Positions 5,097-20,336 of a stretch of DNA of 20,336 nucleotides are shown piece by piece. Positions within the stretch are counted from its first letter, which is position 1, and the number at the start of each line of letters is the position of its first letter. The notes under the pieces were generated by a model. The model ran no database searches and was not told where the DNA came from. It saw only the letters and a program-made list of their open reading frames with translations. The DNA lies in IMG/VR virus record IMGVR_UViG_3300017764_000155, positions 1 to 20,336 of that record; one strand, 5' to 3'. The position numbers and the translations under genes are program-made. This DNA is from a virus.

Positions 5097-8000
5097 TTAT
5101 CTCATAAAAGAGAATGCGTCACTGACTCCAGCTGAAAATCTAGATAATAAATCTTGATTTTCAGTTGTACCTGGCAGACTTGTTAGTAATTGCTGAACAT
5201 TTTCATTACTTACTACAGTGCTTCGGTCTATGTAAATAACTTGAGGTTGTAGTCCTGCTAATCCAGAAAATCCTTCCACTGATAGTGTACGCTGACCTAC
5301 TCCACTATTTACGGGCCCCATTCCTCCCATTCCGCCGGGGCTCATTCCAAATCTAGGTTTATTCAGCATATTAGTTCCCATTGCATCCATTATTGTAACA
5401 GGAATTGGTTCTCTTTTTGCTTTTTCTCCTATTTTATTAAGTTGCTCTGCAGCTTGTATATTTTCATTAGTATCATCATTAGAAAAAGGATTGAGTTTAT
5501 TAAATAATTCTCCTGATTTTTCTTTTACTACATCTACTGTATCATTAATTACATCCTTAGTGGCAGTAATTCCATCACCTATAACTTCAAGTGGTTTATT
5601 AAAGAATGCCAATTTATCAGCTATCCATTCTTGTATACCTTCAAAAAACTTTCTTATAGGTTCAAACACATCTATCATGTCTGGAATTTCTGCAAGTATT
5701 TCATCAATTGATGGTAATGGAATAGGTATTGTTTTTAAACTTGCAACAAATTCATCAAATTTACTTGTGGCCGCATTAAATACATCTTTTACTACATTTG
5801 ATGCTAAAGTTACTAAACTAAATGATGCTGTTAAATTATCAACTTCTGATTTTTTATCACTACCAAATCCAAAAAATGTACTAATATAATTCCATGCACT
5901 TGTTAATAAACCAACAATTAAACCTCCAATACCTTTTGTCTTTAACTCACTATCTGCTGTTGCTGTATCTGCTTTACTTGTGTCAAATCCAAATAATCCT
6001 TTTATGTAATTATAAGCACTTTCTACAAGAGTTGCAACTAAATTCCAAGGGAAAAAGAATACATTAATTAATGATGCAGCAGTATCTTCTGTTGATTTAC
6101 CGAAAACAAACAAACTCTTTAAATAATTGAACGCACCTTGCACTAAATTTCTTAATATTCCAGCTACACCATCAACAGGTTTCATAACATCAGCTAATTT
6201 TGTTGTATCAGCAGTAAACTGGAATAAACCTTTAAACCATCCCCATAGCCCTTCTGCTAATCCTTTTATAATTCCAACTACACCATCAACAGGTTTTATA
6301 GCATCTGCTGTGGTTATGATGTTTTCAGTAAATAAAAATAATCCTTTGAACCAAGACCACAATCCATCTGCTAATCCTTTTATTATGTCTACTACTCTAT
6401 CAGTTCCTTCTGGAAGAAAAGATGTTGTAAATTGGAATAAACCTTTAAACCATTTCCATGCACCTTCAACTAACCCCTGCAAAATAGCTAATACATTATC
6501 TGTTCCTGCTGGTAAGAAAGATGATGTAAATAAAAACAGTCCTTTGAACCATTTCCATGCACCTTCAAGTAATCCTTTTAAAATAGCTAATACATTATCA
6601 GTTCCAGCAGGAAGGAAGTTTAGTGTAAATTTAAATAGTCCAGTGAACCATCCCCATACTCCTTTTGCCAAATCAACAAGTAATGTTCCTATTCCACCAG
6701 TTGAAATTTCTCCACCAGCTTTTGTGGTATCATCTGTTTTAAATCCAAATAATCCTTTGAACCATCCCCACACACCTTTTACTAATGCAGTAATTATAGT
6801 AAGAGGTAATGTTATAAGACTTATTATAGACGCAAACCCTTTTTCTACTGTACTAAAATCAAATAGTCCACTAAACCACTTCCATGTTCCTGTTACTAAA
6901 TCTGTCAATAATGTTTTTGTTTTAGTTACAATATCACCAAATGTTACTTCTCCAGTGAATAATCCTTTGATTAAGTCAAAACCTCTTCTGATTAAATCTT
7001 TTACATAGTCCACAAATGCATTTATAGATTGCTCTACAGTAGCACCAAAATCAAATCCAAAATAGTTTGCAACTATGGCTATACCTGCACCTATCATTCT
7101 AAGAGGCATTCCAAATATACCATCAAATAAAGAAACTAGTCCTTCTTTAATTCCATTAGTTATCTTTTCTGCTGGTGTTCCTTCAATACTATAACCATCT
7201 ATGAACCCAGAAACAAAATCAAATATTCCCATTATTATGGAAATAGGTAAAAATATCTTACCAAGAACTGATCCTATAGTTGATGCAAATGTAAATATGG
7301 GCCCAAACAGTTTCATAAAAGAACCAGCAGTTGATGCCATTGTACCAACTGATTTAATTAAACTGAATATAAATCCTACAAATCTAAATACTCCACCGAT
7401 TAATTTAGTTATACCTCCTGTTACAAGTCCAATAGTGAATCCCATTGCTTTTACTAATCCACCAACAATAGTAAATCCACTTTTTATCACTTTAAAGGCT
7501 GCCATCACTAATTTTACACCAATACTAAATGCATCAGTTATAATAGCAACACCAAACATTACTATTGAGCCCATACTTTTAACTAAAGACCCAACAATAC
7601 TAAATATCCCTTTTATTGTTTTAAATGCAGTTGTTATTATTGCAACTGATAAAGAAAATGCATTAGTTATAAGTACAATACCAAATCTTACAATTCCACC
7701 AACAACTTTTAATAAATCACCAACTACAGTGAATATACCTTTTATTATGTCAAAAGATTTTACTACTACTCTAGAAGCAAAAGCAAATGCTTTAACTACT
7801 TTTTGGATTCCTCCACTAACTATGTCTGATATTACAGTAGCTAATGCACCAACTGATCTAAATGCAGCTTTTATAAAATCAAAAACTTTTTTTAATTTAG
7901 TTCCAGGCCCTGCTATATCATCAAAGAATCCTAAACTAGCTGTAACTCTTTTAAAGAAATTAAAAACAGACCTTATTTTATCAAATGTAATACTTGCTAA

Positions 8001-15193: not shown

Positions 15194-15355
15194 ATGGCTT
15201 CAACAAAAATTAAAACTAGAATGCGTAAAATGAATTTTCAAAGACAGAAGTTAAAGCCAGATTTTCAAACAGAGAATTCCTCAAAAATTGAGGAATATAA
15301 ATATTACCATAATTTATTCATAGATAAGGAACTTATAGCAGATGGAAAATTTTAA
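15194..15355 (+). CDS. Small basic unknown protein, 53 aa
   Basis: The ATG has a near-perfect AAGGAG (15184-15189). The 53 residues start very basic (MASTKIKTRMRKMNFQRQK) and then become mixed, with EEYKYYHNLFIDKELIADG. The stop overlaps the start of the kinase gene by 14 bases in another frame, suggesting coupled expression. A late promoter-like element lies within its coding sequence. Not recognised; the basic head suggests nucleic-acid or membrane-surface contact. Confidence 0.6.
   Translation: MASTKIKTRMRKMNFQRQKLKPDFQTENSSKIEEYKYYHNLFIDKELIADGKF
15296..15303 (+). promoter_or_regulatory. Late promoter motif TATAAATA before the kinase gene
   Basis: A perfect TATAAATA lies inside the 53-aa gene. 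RNA would start near 15309, about 33 bases ahead of the kinase ATG, and would include its AAGGAA ribosome site (15326-15331). In such AT-rich DNA an 8-base match can arise by chance within coding sequence (here codons for Tyr-Lys-Tyr). Confidence 0.4.
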
Positions 15356-16016
15356 ATCATTCTATGAATTGCAAGAAGGTGTTTATGATCCTAACATCTT
15401 TAAAGCAATCTTTTTGGCCGGTGGGCCTGGAAGTGGAAAATCCTATGTAGTAAAAAGAACCACTGGTGGCATGGGATTTAAAATTGTAAACAGTGATGAT
15501 GTATATGAAAAAATGTTAAAAGATGTTGGATTAGACACAACACCAGAAGACATTTTTTCAGACAAAGGTCAAGCAGTAAGAGTTAAAGCAAAAGCAACAA
15601 CAAAACGAATGCAAGGAAATTATCTTGCAGGACGTTTGGGTTTAGTTATTGATGGAACGGGAAAAGATTATAATAAAATTACTGATCAAGCCAAAAAGTT
15701 GCAACAACTAGGTTATGAAACTATGATGATTTTTGTGGATACAACTTTGGAAACTTCTTTAAATCAAAATAGAATGAGAAAAAGAACTCTTCCAGATGAT
15801 GAAGTAACAAAAATGTGGCAAGGTGTTCAAGTAAATAAAGACCGTTTTGCTGCATTTTTTGGAAGTGGATTTATTAGAGTAGAAAATAATATGGCTGGTG
15901 AAGATGTTTTTGCAAAAGTATGGAAAAAAATAAAAAGTATGGCTGGTAAAAAAGTTAATAATCCAATTGCAAAAGCTTGGATTGCAAATGAACTTGCAAA
16001 GAAAAAAAGACCTTGA
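15342..16016 (+). CDS. P-loop kinase, zeta-toxin/polynucleotide-kinase-like
   Basis: In this 224-residue protein FLAGGPGSGKS (residues 24-34) is a Walker A motif at the end of the first strand, followed by IVNSDDVYEKML (an acidic substrate-side motif as in zeta toxins and polynucleotide kinases), GLVIDGTGKDYNKI (Walker B-like strand) and MMIFVDTTLETSLNQNRMRKR, the usual Arg-rich lid. The C-terminal end is basic (ANELAKKKRP). Related proteins occur in marine T4-like phages without a proven substrate; a nucleotide, nucleic-acid end or UDP-sugar are the family options. AAGGAA precedes the start. The TGA is embedded in the -35 box of the next promoter. Confidence 0.78.
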   Translation: MENFKSFYELQEGVYDPNIFKAIFLAGGPGSGKSYVVKRTTGGMGFKIVNSDDVYEKMLKDVGLDTTPEDIFSDKGQAVRVKAKATTKRMQGNYLAGRLGLVIDGTGKDYNKITDQAKKLQQLGYETMMIFVDTTLETSLNQNRMRKRTLPDDEVTKMWQGVQVNKDRFAAFFGSGFIRVENNMAGEDVFAKVWKKIKSMAGKKVNNPIAKAWIANELAKKKRP

Positions 16017-16041
16017 CAATTATTTTTATCTGAGGTATGAT
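16013..16041 (+). promoter_or_regulatory. Strong sigma70-type promoter before the Cys-rich peptide
   Basis: TTGACA (16013-16018), 17 bases, TATGAT (16036-16041). The upstream kinase TGA (16014-16016) is inside the -35 box, and an A-tract precedes it. The start site should be near 16048, leaving a leader of about 19 bases with AAGGAAT as ribosome site for the 27-aa gene. Confidence 0.85.
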
Positions 16042-16066
16042 AACATTTTAAATAAGGAATAATCCT

Positions 16067-16150
16067 ATGTGTTCTAATCCAGATTGTGCTTGTGAGAATT
16101 GTTCTTGCGATGAGGAATCTTGTGATTGTGAATGCTGTAATAAAGAGTAG
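16067..16150 (+). CDS. 27-aa Cys-rich metallothionein-like peptide
   Basis: The peptide has 27 residues, 9 of them cysteine, at 2, 7, 9, 12, 14, 19, 21, 23 and 24. Spacing gives CxC, CxxC and CxC runs, with ten acidic or Asn/Asp-type residues between. CACENCSC (7-14) closely resembles the N-terminal CACEPCLC metal-binding segment I recall from bacterial metallothioneins of the SmtA type; those are about 55 residues, so this would be roughly half of one. A strong dedicated promoter, AAGGAAT (16054-16060) and tight coupling to the next gene (stop TAG directly followed by ATG) support expression. Metal binding (zinc, copper or cadmium) or redox buffering is inferred from the cysteine pattern. 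Confidence 0.72.
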   Translation: MCSNPDCACENCSCDEESCDCECCNKE

Positions 16151-16291
16151 ATGATGACTTTATGGAAGAAGCCGTATATTGATGTGACGTATACCGGAGA
16201 ATGGAAATTTGGAAAACAGAAATGGGAAGATACAGAAGTATACAAAGAATACTATATCGGCCCATTTCTTTTTCGTAAATTTTATACATGA
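16151..16291 (+). CDS. Small unknown protein, 46 aa
   Basis: It starts directly after the stop of the Cys-rich peptide gene and overlaps the next gene by ATGA. The product is Trp/Tyr/Lys-rich (MMTLWKKPYIDVTYTGEWKFGKQKW, then VYKEYYIGPFLFRKFYT), with alternating residues that suggest a small beta structure. There are no cysteines. The ribosome site is weak (GTAATAAAGAG), so it is probably translated by coupling. Family not recognised. Confidence 0.6.
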   Translation: MMTLWKKPYIDVTYTGEWKFGKQKWEDTEVYKEYYIGPFLFRKFYT

Positions 16292-16458
16292 ACTGGTTAA
16301 TGGTGGTTCTGGTCTTTGATTCTCATAATCGCCTTGAGGCCACAGTAGAACATAAATTTGACAATTATTTGGAAATGATGGATTATCGGACATTTCTGAT
16401 GGAGGAAGACCCAAATTATCCTCAAGAAAATTTTAAAATATTTTGCATGAAAGTATAA
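16288..16458 (+). CDS. Small unknown protein, 56 aa
   Basis: A 56-residue ORF coupled to the previous gene by an ATGA overlap. It opens with a hydrophobic stretch MNWLMVVLVF (about 10 residues, short for a membrane helix and more like a buried strand), followed by an acidic, Met-rich body (DNYLEMMDYRTFLMEEDPNYP) and FKIFCMKV. The A-tract after its stop leads into the next promoter. Not recognised. Confidence 0.55.
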   Translation: MNWLMVVLVFDSHNRLEATVEHKFDNYLEMMDYRTFLMEEDPNYPQENFKIFCMKV

Positions 16459-17063: not shown

Positions 17064-17275
17064 TGTATCGTGTGACATATGCTAGAGATTCTTTAGATAA
17101 CAATCCAACAGTTAAAGAGTTTGATTTTTATGATGAAGCTAGTGATTGGTTACATGAAGAAGTTTCAAGAAGAATTGCATTTGCTGTTGAACATAGCCCT
17201 TATACCGTTTCTGAAGAAGAATACAATCAAATGGAAGAAGTAGAATATACTTTAGTTAAAATGGAAGAAATATGA
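17063..17275 (+). CDS. Conserved small acidic phage protein, 70 aa
   Basis: The ATG at 17063 is preferred over an upstream GTG (17006) because TGGAGG sits 8 bases before it and MYRVTYARDS is a natural opening. The protein continues FDFYDEASDWLHEEVSRRIAFAVEHSPYTVSEEEYNQMEEVEYTLVKMEEI, a pattern I remember from small proteins of unknown function in T4-like marine phages. It is strongly acidic and compact alpha/beta. The stop overlaps the purC ATG (ATGA), so it is coupled to purC. Confidence 0.72.
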   Translation: MYRVTYARDSLDNNPTVKEFDFYDEASDWLHEEVSRRIAFAVEHSPYTVSEEEYNQMEEVEYTLVKMEEI

Positions 17276-18336
17276 CTCAATTAAAACAAGGAATAAAACT
17301 AGGAACTAATGTTGTTGAAGGTAAAACTAAAAAAGTAACTGATTGTTCTTTAACTATGGATATAGTGCATTCTGGTGAGCCTGAAGGAAAACTTATTTCT
17401 GAAGTAGATGGTTATGTATTGATTGAAACAAAAAATGTTTTAACTGCAAATGATGCAGCAAAAAAGTCTGATGCAAATGTTGCAAAAGAGAAAACAAAAC
17501 AGAATTGTGTAATTATGAAACATTTAGATGCACATCATATACCAGTTGCATTTGTTTCTCAAGTAGATGATACTTCTTTTATTTCAAAAAAATGTGAGAT
17601 GATACCATATGAATGTGTAATTAGAAGAAGAGCAACAGGAAGTTTTTTGAAACGTAATGTGCAGATGATAGAAGGATTTAAATTTGGTGGAGAATTTCAA
17701 GGCCAAAAAGGATTACCAATATATGAATTCTTTTATAAGCCTGCATTTGTTGTCAGTCCAGAAATAGGTCTAGGCTCAAGATTTATGAGTGAAGATGAGG
17801 CGAGAGAAAAATATATGGTAGACGGTAAATGGATAACAGAAGTTTATACAGACCCATATGCTGTATTCAGTTGGGCTGATTGGAGATTAAATGGTGCAGA
17901 CCCAGATAATGCAGAAGGATTTAAATTAAATGTATATAATGCAAAAGTTCCTCCAAATATGCATTCTAAATTAGATTCAATTCCTAGTTTAATTACGCCA
18001 AAAGAATATCAATATGTAATAAAAATAATGGGACAATGTTTTGTGCTACTTGAAGATTGTTGGGAAGATTTTGATGTAGAATTAATTGATATGAAAATTG
18101 AATTTGGAAGAACTGCTGAGGATGGTAAACTAGTAATTGCTGATGTAATTGATAACGATAGTTGGAGAATTTGGCCTCAAGGCGATTCATCTAAACAACT
18201 AGATAAACAATCATTCCGTGATGGAGAAGAACTAAATACTGTTGAAGAAAAATATAGAATTGTTACTGAGTATGTAGAAAAATTTGAAATCAAGAAAAAT
18301 CGTGTTTTTAATATAAATGAAGAATACATACAGTAG
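17272..18336 (+). CDS. purC: SAICAR synthetase (PurC), long form
   Basis: PurC ligates aspartate to CAIR using ATP, step 7 or 8 of purine synthesis. Family motifs are in order: VVEGKTKKV (14-22), NVLTANDAAK (55-64), IPYECVIRRRATGSFLKR (111-128), LIDMKIEFG (271-279), ADVIDNDSWRIWP (290-302) and DKQSFRDG (311-318). At 354 residues it is much longer than the 237-residue E. coli enzyme; the extra length is mainly a 100-residue stretch (about 140-245) carrying YEFFYKPAF, VYTDPYAVFSWADWRLNGADP and PPNMHSKLDSIPS. The key motifs are intact, so activity is likely. It is coupled to the 70-aa gene and followed by the DHODH-like gene and purB, the enzyme acting next on its product. Confidence 0.93.
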   Translation: MTQLKQGIKLGTNVVEGKTKKVTDCSLTMDIVHSGEPEGKLISEVDGYVLIETKNVLTANDAAKKSDANVAKEKTKQNCVIMKHLDAHHIPVAFVSQVDDTSFISKKCEMIPYECVIRRRATGSFLKRNVQMIEGFKFGGEFQGQKGLPIYEFFYKPAFVVSPEIGLGSRFMSEDEAREKYMVDGKWITEVYTDPYAVFSWADWRLNGADPDNAEGFKLNVYNAKVPPNMHSKLDSIPSLITPKEYQYVIKIMGQCFVLLEDCWEDFDVELIDMKIEFGRTAEDGKLVIADVIDNDSWRIWPQGDSSKQLDKQSFRDGEELNTVEEKYRIVTEYVEKFEIKKNRVFNINEEYIQ

Positions 18337-18352
18337 AATAACTTGGAAAAAT

Positions 18353-19081
18353 ATGAGCATTTACATTGCAGCTCCTTTTGGGAATTATTTGTTTACTAGA
18401 AAAACTAGAAGTGTTCTAGGGACATACACTATAGAAAAAAGACCCGGCCTCCTAAAACAATTAATAAAAACTTTACGTTATAAGAATGGTGCATGGTATA
18501 ATTCTTTGGGATTAAGAAATCCAGGCATTGACTTTGGTATTCGTAGATACAATAAAAAAAGAGGAGATTTATTATCAATCGCAGCAATTAAACAGGGTGA
18601 TTGGAAATTATTAAGTGAAAAAATACCAGATGATTTTGATGTTGAATTGAATTTAAGTTGTCCAAATATAGAACATTTTGAAAATTATTATGAAGGTATA
18701 TCTTCTTTTCTTAATGACAAAAGAAAAGTTATTGTAAAACTTTCTCCTTTAACTACCAGTACAATGGTGCAATCATTTATTAGTTTAGGATTTAATAGCT
18801 TCCATTGTTGCAATACTCTTCCATCAAAAGATGGTGGAATGAGTGGTAAAGGTCTTGAAAAATATGTAGACAGGTTAATTAAAATTATAAAACATTTTAA
18901 GGGGGATGCAGAAATTATTGCTGGTGGAGGAATTCAGAGTTTAGAAGATATTGAGAGATATAAAGAATTAGGAGCTAATTCATTTTCTCTTGGTACAGTT
19001 TGTTTTAACATTGGAAATTTTTATAAGATTATACATGCACGAAAGATATATAGACAAGGAAATGGCTCAAATTTGGAGTGA
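18353..19081 (+). CDS. Dihydroorotate dehydrogenase-like FMN protein, short
   Basis: A 242-residue TIM-barrel protein of the DHODH family. It has YNSLGLRNPGIDF (class 1A enzymes have INSMGLPNLGFD), VELNLSCPN with Cys103 at the class 1 catalytic-cysteine position, VIVKLSPLTT, NTLPSKDGGMSGKG, and the FMN-phosphate loop IIAGGGIQS plus SLGT. The true enzyme oxidises dihydroorotate in pyrimidine synthesis. It is 60-70 residues shorter than class 1A PyrD. Against my memory of the lactococcal enzyme, the segment with the conserved flavin/orotate lysine (TKSST) is missing in LGTYTIEKRPG, so activity or substrate may differ. The start is ATG 18353 (GGAAA upstream); an earlier ATG at 18317 overlaps purC. 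Its end overlaps purB by 47 bases. Confidence 0.8.
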   Translation: MSIYIAAPFGNYLFTRKTRSVLGTYTIEKRPGLLKQLIKTLRYKNGAWYNSLGLRNPGIDFGIRRYNKKRGDLLSIAAIKQGDWKLLSEKIPDDFDVELNLSCPNIEHFENYYEGISSFLNDKRKVIVKLSPLTTSTMVQSFISLGFNSFHCCNTLPSKDGGMSGKGLEKYVDRLIKIIKHFKGDAEIIAGGGIQSLEDIERYKELGANSFSLGTVCFNIGNFYKIIHARKIYRQGNGSNLE

Positions 19082-20336
19082 AGAAAACAAATTTGAGAAA
19101 TGGTTTGAAGTAGAATTAAATGTTTGTAAAATACAAAGTGAGTTAGGAAATATACCTTATGATGTTCCTAAAACAATGGAAACATTAAAAGAATCATGTT
19201 TTTTACCAAACTTTGTTGAAAAAATTAACGAAATAGAAAAAACCACAAAACATGATATTATTGCTTTTTTGACACATTTATCTAATGTAATAGGTGAGCC
19301 TGCCAAATACATACACTATGGTATGACTAGTCAAGACTTAATTGACACATCTCAAGCTATTTTAATTAAAGAATCTATTTTTTTAATTAAAAAACGCCTT
19401 TTATCAATCTGTAACAAATTAAAAGAAAAGTCGATTGAGCATAAGTTTACTTATTGTATTGGTAGAACTCATGGAATTCATGCAGAGCCAATGACATTTG
19501 GGTTAAAGATGTTGTCTCATTTTGCAGCATTTCAAAGATGTTTTCAAGCATTAGATATGGATATTGATGAAATAGTTAGAATAAAATGTAGTGGAGCAGT
19601 TGGTAATTTTAGCATGATAAATCCCATTATAGAAGAAAATCTTAGTGCAAAATTAAGAATTCCTACTGAAGATATATCAACTCAAGTTATTCCAAGAGAA
19701 AGACTTGCACTTCTATTTTCACACTTATCAATTATAGCTGGTTGCATTGAAAGATTTGCAATAGAAATTAGACATCTTCAAAGAACAGAAGTTGGTGAAG
19801 TAATAGAATCCTTTACTAAAGGGCAAAAGGGTTCAAGTGCAATGCCACATAAAAAGAATCCTATTTTATCTGAAAATTTAACAGGTCTTGCACGGCTTGT
19901 AAGAATGGCACTAATTCCTGCTATGGAAAATATTGCATTGTGGCATGAAAGAGATATTTCTCATTCAAGTGTGGAGCGTGTAATATTACCAGATACATTT
20001 ACACATTTAAGTTTTGCACTTAAAAGAATGGAAAGCATTTTAGATAATATGGTTGTTGATATTGATAAAATGCAGCATAATCTAGATTTAACAAAGGGCT
20101 CAATTTATTCACAAAAAGTATTATTATATTTAATTAATACTAAGAAATTTAGCCGTGAATATGCATACGAACTTGTACAAAGAATAGTACAACAAGGTGT
20201 ATCTTACTCAAGATGTAATTTATTTTATGGATTAGTAGAAGAAAGTGTTCTCACTGAATCAGAATTAAAAAAGATTATGCGATTAGATGGATTTAATAAT
20301 AACATAGAATACATTTATAAAAAGGTATTAACATGA
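19035..20336 (+). CDS. purB: Adenylosuccinate lyase (PurB)
   Basis: The 433-residue enzyme belongs to the fumarase/aspartase superfamily. It converts SAICAR to AICAR and adenylosuccinate to AMP, releasing fumarate. Start 19035 gives MHERYIDKEMAQIWSEENKFEKWFEVEL, aligning with the usual PurB opening (ERYxxxEMxxIWSEENKF); the further upstream in-frame ATG would add unrelated residues. Conserved blocks are YGMTSQDLIDT (about 95-105), GRTHGIHAEPMTFG (about 142-155) with the catalytic His region, and the signature GSSAMPHKKNP (about 265-275) on the mobile catalytic loop, then WHERDISHSSVER. Length is normal and the gene is complete, ending at the last base of the window. It acts directly after PurC. 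Confidence 0.95.
   Translation: MHERYIDKEMAQIWSEENKFEKWFEVELNVCKIQSELGNIPYDVPKTMETLKESCFLPNFVEKINEIEKTTKHDIIAFLTHLSNVIGEPAKYIHYGMTSQDLIDTSQAILIKESIFLIKKRLLSICNKLKEKSIEHKFTYCIGRTHGIHAEPMTFGLKMLSHFAAFQRCFQALDMDIDEIVRIKCSGAVGNFSMINPIIEENLSAKLRIPTEDISTQVIPRERLALLFSHLSIIAGCIERFAIEIRHLQRTEVGEVIESFTKGQKGSSAMPHKKNPILSENLTGLARLVRMALIPAMENIALWHERDISHSSVERVILPDTFTHLSFALKRMESILDNMVVDIDKMQHNLDLTKGSIYSQKVLLYLINTKKFSREYAYELVQRIVQQGVSYSRCNLFYGLVEESVLTESELKKIMRLDGFNNNIEYIYKKVLT

Follow-up and report, generated by a model that had tools for sequence, protein, structure and literature searches.

A 27-residue cysteine-rich phage peptide, predicted to be a mini-metallothionein, and its family of short peptides in phages and bacteria

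The window analysed here, a 20,336-bp IMG/VR record, encodes a 27-residue cysteine-rich peptide that is best read as a phage-encoded mini-metallothionein buffering Cu(I)/Zn(II) inside the host cell during infection. We place the probability of this reading at roughly 0.7; that the peptide is expressed, that it binds metal, which metal it binds and that it benefits the phage are predictions. Peptides of the same family, of a metal-binding type and apparently not described before, are widespread in ocean phages and also occur in bacteria. The phages related to the window include T4-like Kyanoviridae, for example Methylophilales phage Melnitz, and the window and its relatives are presumably marine, judging by cultured relatives rather than sample data. 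ORFs this short escape the gene callers and profile libraries that are used to catalogue phage auxiliary genes.

The peptide gene and its close ortholog

The peptide gene lies in the following arrangement.

16067..16150 (+): 27-aa Cys-rich peptide MCSNPDCACENCSCDEESCDCECCNKE with 9 Cys, a predicted mini-metallothionein on the evidence of the ORF, its ortholog, selection and the family
16013..16041 (+): sigma-70-type promoter, TTGACA-17-TATGAT, 11/12 consensus positions
16054..16059 (+): ribosome-binding site, Shine-Dalgarno (SD)-like AAGGAA, read from the sequence
16151..16291 (+): 46-aa conserved protein, function not assigned, whose start directly abuts the peptide stop (TAGATGATG)
16288..16458 (+): 56-aa protein, function not assigned, whose start overlaps the stop of the 46-aa gene (ATGA)

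An earlier note on this DNA had pointed to a 27-aa ORF with nine Cys, and the ORF was recovered exactly. The Cys occupy positions 2, 7, 9, 12, 14, 19, 21, 23 and 24 in CxC/CxxC spacing. The peptide contains no F, W, Y or H and resembles metallothioneins in the broad chemical sense in its small size, its Cys content and spacing and its lack of aromatic residues; its computed net charge is about -8 and its pI about 4, and the absence of a signal sequence indicates a cytosolic location. At 84 nt the ORF is, as had been remarked, shorter than the usual gene-calling limit of 90 nt. The strong promoter ascribed to it was also confirmed: on both strands of the entire window only five sites are this good, and it is one of them. 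The ribosome site may pair with the bases before the start codon in a weak 4-bp hairpin (AGGA-AUAA-UCCU, 16055-16066).

At least one close ortholog was found, in the record IMGVR_UViG_3300025890_003387 (L154). Its syntenic 29-aa peptide, MSCSNPKCKCENCSCDEEYCNCECCNKKD, keeps 9/9 Cys and is 81% identical to the window peptide, and the conservation extends to the C-terminal half (the four Cys at positions 19-24 with an acidic linker), which lies outside the pattern used to search for the family. Both records have the gene order baseplate, 53-aa gene, promoter, Cys peptide, 46-aa gene, 56-aa gene and PurC, and the kinase gene that in the window follows the 53-aa gene, ahead of the peptide, is missing from L154. 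The promoter of L154 stands in the same slot (TTGACT-17-TATAAT) and is likewise followed by a ribosome site (AAAGGAGA).

Comparison of the two peptide genes gave 11.5 synonymous changes per 11.0 sites, which is saturated, and 9.5 non-synonymous changes per 67 sites, a dN of about 0.16. PurC is 46% identical between the two records and the 46-aa neighbour 70%, indicating that the peptide is constrained at least as much as its surroundings; on these substitution counts it is under purifying selection. The earlier note had named conservation of the Cys pattern in relatives and a departure from neutral substitution as the tests of its proposal, and both came out in its favour, the pattern being kept in L154 and in the wider family and dN being far below dS. 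Additionally, ORFs of at least 15 aa in which 7 or more residues, and no less than 25%, are Cys numbered 0 in 300 first-order Markov versions of the window, as against 1 in the real window. The ORF is therefore of coding type, a real selected gene and not a product of chance.

A family of short peptides in phages and bacteria

A scan of IMG/VR with a DNA pattern for NPxCxC[DE]xCxC matched at least 119 contigs, as against 6 for the reversed pattern that served as control. Conservation inside the pattern is ascertained by the search and was left out as evidence, and the matches listed are not a random sample. Of the 120 listed viral matches, counting the window itself, 107 fall in ORFs no longer than 60 aa; 97 of these short ORFs have an at least weak SD and 75 a good one, with start codons picked by SD and closeness, a procedure that favours finding SDs. 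Outside the search pattern, a Cys two residues before NP occurs in 75 of the 77 unique viral peptides among the matches listed, and 40 of the 77 have exactly nine Cys in total. Two motif positions covary in the listed viral peptides in a way that the search pattern did not impose, E being followed by N in 25 and by P in 0, and D by N in 4 and by P in 37 (p = 2e-14). Residues other than Cys outside the motif vary widely among the family peptides listed. The window peptide contains the core motif and the Cys two before NP (CSNPDCACENCSC), and it is a standalone short ORF with an SD in a tailed-phage genome, features by which it falls within the family.

The genes beside the listed viral copies match tail assembly chaperone, PhoH, terminase, portal, head closure and helicase families in PHROGs, and T4 neck and prohead protease in Pfam. 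Since these are phage hallmark genes, the carriers are tailed phages. The listed viral loci form 38 groups by immediate-neighbour similarity, whereas a looser three-neighbour linking joins most of them (54) into one set, so that it is uncertain how often the gene was gained independently. One viral record holds two copies (L093 and L169). At two further loci (L143 and L155) CxNPxCxCDPCTC lies within a phage protein of 198-199 aa that has a basic C-terminal part, and the part tested had no Pfam match.

The same pattern was found in at least 115 stretches of GTDB genomes, and about 79 of the matches listed are clear short peptides. The listed carriers include Mycolicibacterium, Tsukamurella, Alphaproteobacteria, Gastranaerophilales, Bacteroidota and SAR202, among others. 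The distribution of the motif in bacteria is patchy: it occurs in 14/201 genomes of the family of the Mycolicibacterium carrier and in 1/301 genomes of the phylum of the SAR202 carrier (the centre itself), with 0 for the control pattern in each case. Among 108 neighbour proteins of the listed bacterial matches, 17 match PF02583 (the CsoR/RcnR metal-sensing repressors), 4 are cation efflux proteins and 3 are NicO proteins. A CsoR-type repressor gene lies at most two genes away in 19 of the 79 listed loci, always on the same strand, an association contributed mainly by two lineages among the matches listed, the gut Alphaproteobacteria and the Gastranaerophilales. The repressors beside the peptides carry Cys, then His-x3-Cys (C-H-C), the established copper fingerprint of CsoR. 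The motif is also fused to metal-related domains, namely HMA (L220), Trns_repr_metal (L210) and Penicillinase_R (L211) as tested with Pfam, and HMA (L311) and Penicillinase_R (L294 and L315) as judged by similarity, Penicillinase_R being the BlaI/CopY family. For bacteria, then, the family suggests that an unnamed peptide linked to copper lies next to CsoR. In L220 and L311 the CxNPxCxC motif forms the C-terminal tail of an HMA copper-chaperone-type domain, and L321 is a 491-aa bacterial ORF with 56 Cys in repeats of the type CGNPNCTCDPCxCEPGDCC.

The bacterial CxNPxC peptides that lie beside CsoR, HMA and BlaI/CopY domains or are fused to them share with the phage peptide the CxNPxCxC[DE]xCxC core and the EN/DP covariation. 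Unlike it, many of them reach greater lengths, with CGDNC-type repeats (about 65 aa at most, 17-19 Cys), and they are chromosomal and have metal-gene neighbours. No metal gene adjoins the window's peptide or recurs next to the listed phage copies, so the link to metal genes that is seen for the listed bacterial copies was not seen for the phage copies listed, and the phage role rests on the motif that the two have in common. Whether the short peptides of phages and bacteria are homologous or convergent cannot be proved by sequence.

The motif and the selection data fit equally well a peptide that acts as a metal thief or donor, taking Zn from host proteins or feeding phage zinc enzymes or zinc-finger proteins, and which would thereby aid replication when metal is low instead of guarding against a surplus. 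Open-ocean water is zinc-poor, and the listed phage copies are repeatedly found next to genes of replication type (PhoH, helicases and clamp loader). The copper-type CsoR repressors and efflux genes at the bacterial copies, however, fit the handling of excess and not the supply of metal, and we consider a thief or donor unlikely, though more probable than the other alternatives. Redox or thiol buffering, in which the Cys would mainly scavenge oxidants alongside phage glutaredoxin and peroxiredoxin, is improbable. The window does encode Grx (627-872) and a redoxin (883-1386), to which the earlier note had tied the peptide, and one neighbour of a phage copy elsewhere is a glutaredoxin; that tie found no specific support, as the two genes lie 15 kb from the peptide and the genes that recur next to the copies in other phages are ordinary ones. 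Moreover, the fixed CxC/CxxC spacing, the EN/DP covariation and the metal-domain fusions point to metal sites, whereas a pure oxidant scavenger would have no need of fixed spacing.

Relation to known metallothioneins and a proposed role

The earlier note had described the peptide as resembling half a metallothionein, comparing its CACENCSC (residues 7-14, near the N-terminus) with the bacterial metallothionein segment CACEPCLC. A metallothionein-like peptide is still the best reading, but a piece of SmtA/BmtA is not supported: CxCxxCxC is all that the two have in common, there is no Pfam metallothionein match, and the peptide belongs instead to a family of its own, CxNPxCxC[DE]xCxC, whose members occur in both phages and bacteria. 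The SmtA/BmtA proteins of cyanobacteria and Pseudomonas resemble it in being small and Cys-rich, in lacking a signal sequence and in having an acidic middle residue within CxCxxCxC (CACEPCLC). They are about 55 aa long as against 27 aa, however, and the CxNP element that precedes the motif in the peptide distinguishes it from them. A zinc-finger fold has been reported for SmtA (PMC10612145); the peptide is too short to accommodate one and contains neither His nor aromatic residues. Judged from its sequence, with CxCxxCxC as the sole common element, it may function as metallothioneins do while standing outside the SmtA/BmtA group.

The CxNPxCxC peptides of Mycolicibacterium and Tsukamurella are presumably distinct from the mycobacterial peptide MymT. 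MymT, a copper metallothionein tied to copper detoxification (PMC7387436), is like the phage peptide a small Cys-rich thiolate peptide. The beta domain of mammalian metallothionein has nine Cys, as does the phage peptide, but the Cys spacing and the neighbouring residues differ.

For the window peptide and its phage relatives there was no metallothionein match in Pfam or NCBIfam up to E = 10, and one of 27 bacterial relatives gave a weak match to Metallothio_5 (E 0.56), HMMER being weak on such short queries in both cases. PHROGs did not recognise the peptide family, and a profile search of the PDB returned no match. The open-access full-text literature contained no account of phage metallothioneins or of the motif strings.

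We propose that the peptide would be the first gene product of a small operon under the sigma-70-type promoter. In the reducing cytosol its nine thiolates would enclose soft metal ions, with Cu(I) and/or Zn(II) the likeliest, in one small metal-thiolate cluster; an M(II)3Cys9 cluster uses nine Cys, a number that the peptide would fit. It could then buffer the free metal or the thiol-reactive stress of host takeover, and this buffering would benefit phage yield. For a cytosolic, acidic and Cys-spaced peptide whose family keeps company with metal genes, a Cu(I)/Zn(II) thiolate cluster is the simplest reading. The computed charge of about -8 would also suit an inhibitor that binds a host protein, perhaps via a structural zinc site, and small acidic proteins of T4-like phages often inhibit host proteins. 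The presence of the same motif in bacterial metal loci and the high variability of the non-Cys positions outside the motif speak against inhibition, which we rate as slightly less probable again than redox buffering.

If the peptides do bind metal, phages would supply some of the smallest natural metallothioneins, and control of trace metals would rank with photosynthesis and the supply of phosphate and nucleotides among the processes that marine phages repeatedly target. It is possible, at a little under even odds, that a large class of micro-metallothioneins of about 16-60 aa, controlling copper or zinc in the infected cell, has been overlooked in ocean tailed phages; trace-metal handling would then be a widespread element of marine phage infection that had escaped notice. 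The family also offers natural variants with 7, 8 or 9 Cys for testing the minimum number of residues required for a metal cluster.

The gene slot and its leader region

The 46-aa gene adjoins the peptide gene in L154 as well and is probably co-transcribed with it; the identity of its product is 70% and 54% in L154 and L001, A1. L154 also has an ORF similar to the 56-aa gene in the corresponding position. When the kinase, the 46-aa gene and PurC were used to look for other records with this slot, L154 was the only one among those retrieved to carry the peptide. The Cys peptide was not found in L001, L002, L205 or L206, where the promoter slot and the 46-aa gene are kept, with TTGACA promoters in the equivalent slot of L001, L205 and L206. 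The pattern search of nine cultured phages was at chance level (1 forward match, in P-SSM2, vs 3 control matches), and a stricter back-translated pattern gave no match. A tblastn search of cultured phages, with the peptide and two longer relatives as queries, likewise gave no match but is uninformative, since the low-complexity filter of BLAST may mask such queries. The peptide-free relatives show that the gene is accessory and optional in its slot.

An inverted repeat, GGTAGAGTATTT...AAATACTCTACC, stands right after the promoter in the peptide-free L205 (about 2890-2960), L206 and L001 (about 5790-5840) and is possibly a regulatory hairpin. Such a leader hairpin in relatives that lack the ORF, together with a 115-nt stretch that folds somewhat better than its shuffles (z -2.2), would be in keeping with an ORF that arose by chance in a leader RNA, the RNA and not the peptide being functional. 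That the amino acids are kept while synonymous sites are saturated argues against this, as do the lack of comparable ORFs in the simulated windows and the large family with SDs. A chance ORF or RNA-only function is largely ruled out by the substitution pattern and the simulations, and is by far the least credible of the alternatives to a mini-metallothionein.

The kinase gene of the window (15342-16016) encodes an AAA_33/zeta-toxin-like P-loop kinase that is absent from L154, has 125 IMG/VR relatives and is a hypothetical protein in Melnitz phages. Farther downstream, 17272-20336 holds a nucleotide synthesis cluster of PurC (SAICAR synthetase, by Pfam), a dihydroorotate-dehydrogenase-like protein and, by eye, an adenylosuccinate-lyase-like ORF; L154 likewise carries PurC and more purine- and pyrimidine-like genes.
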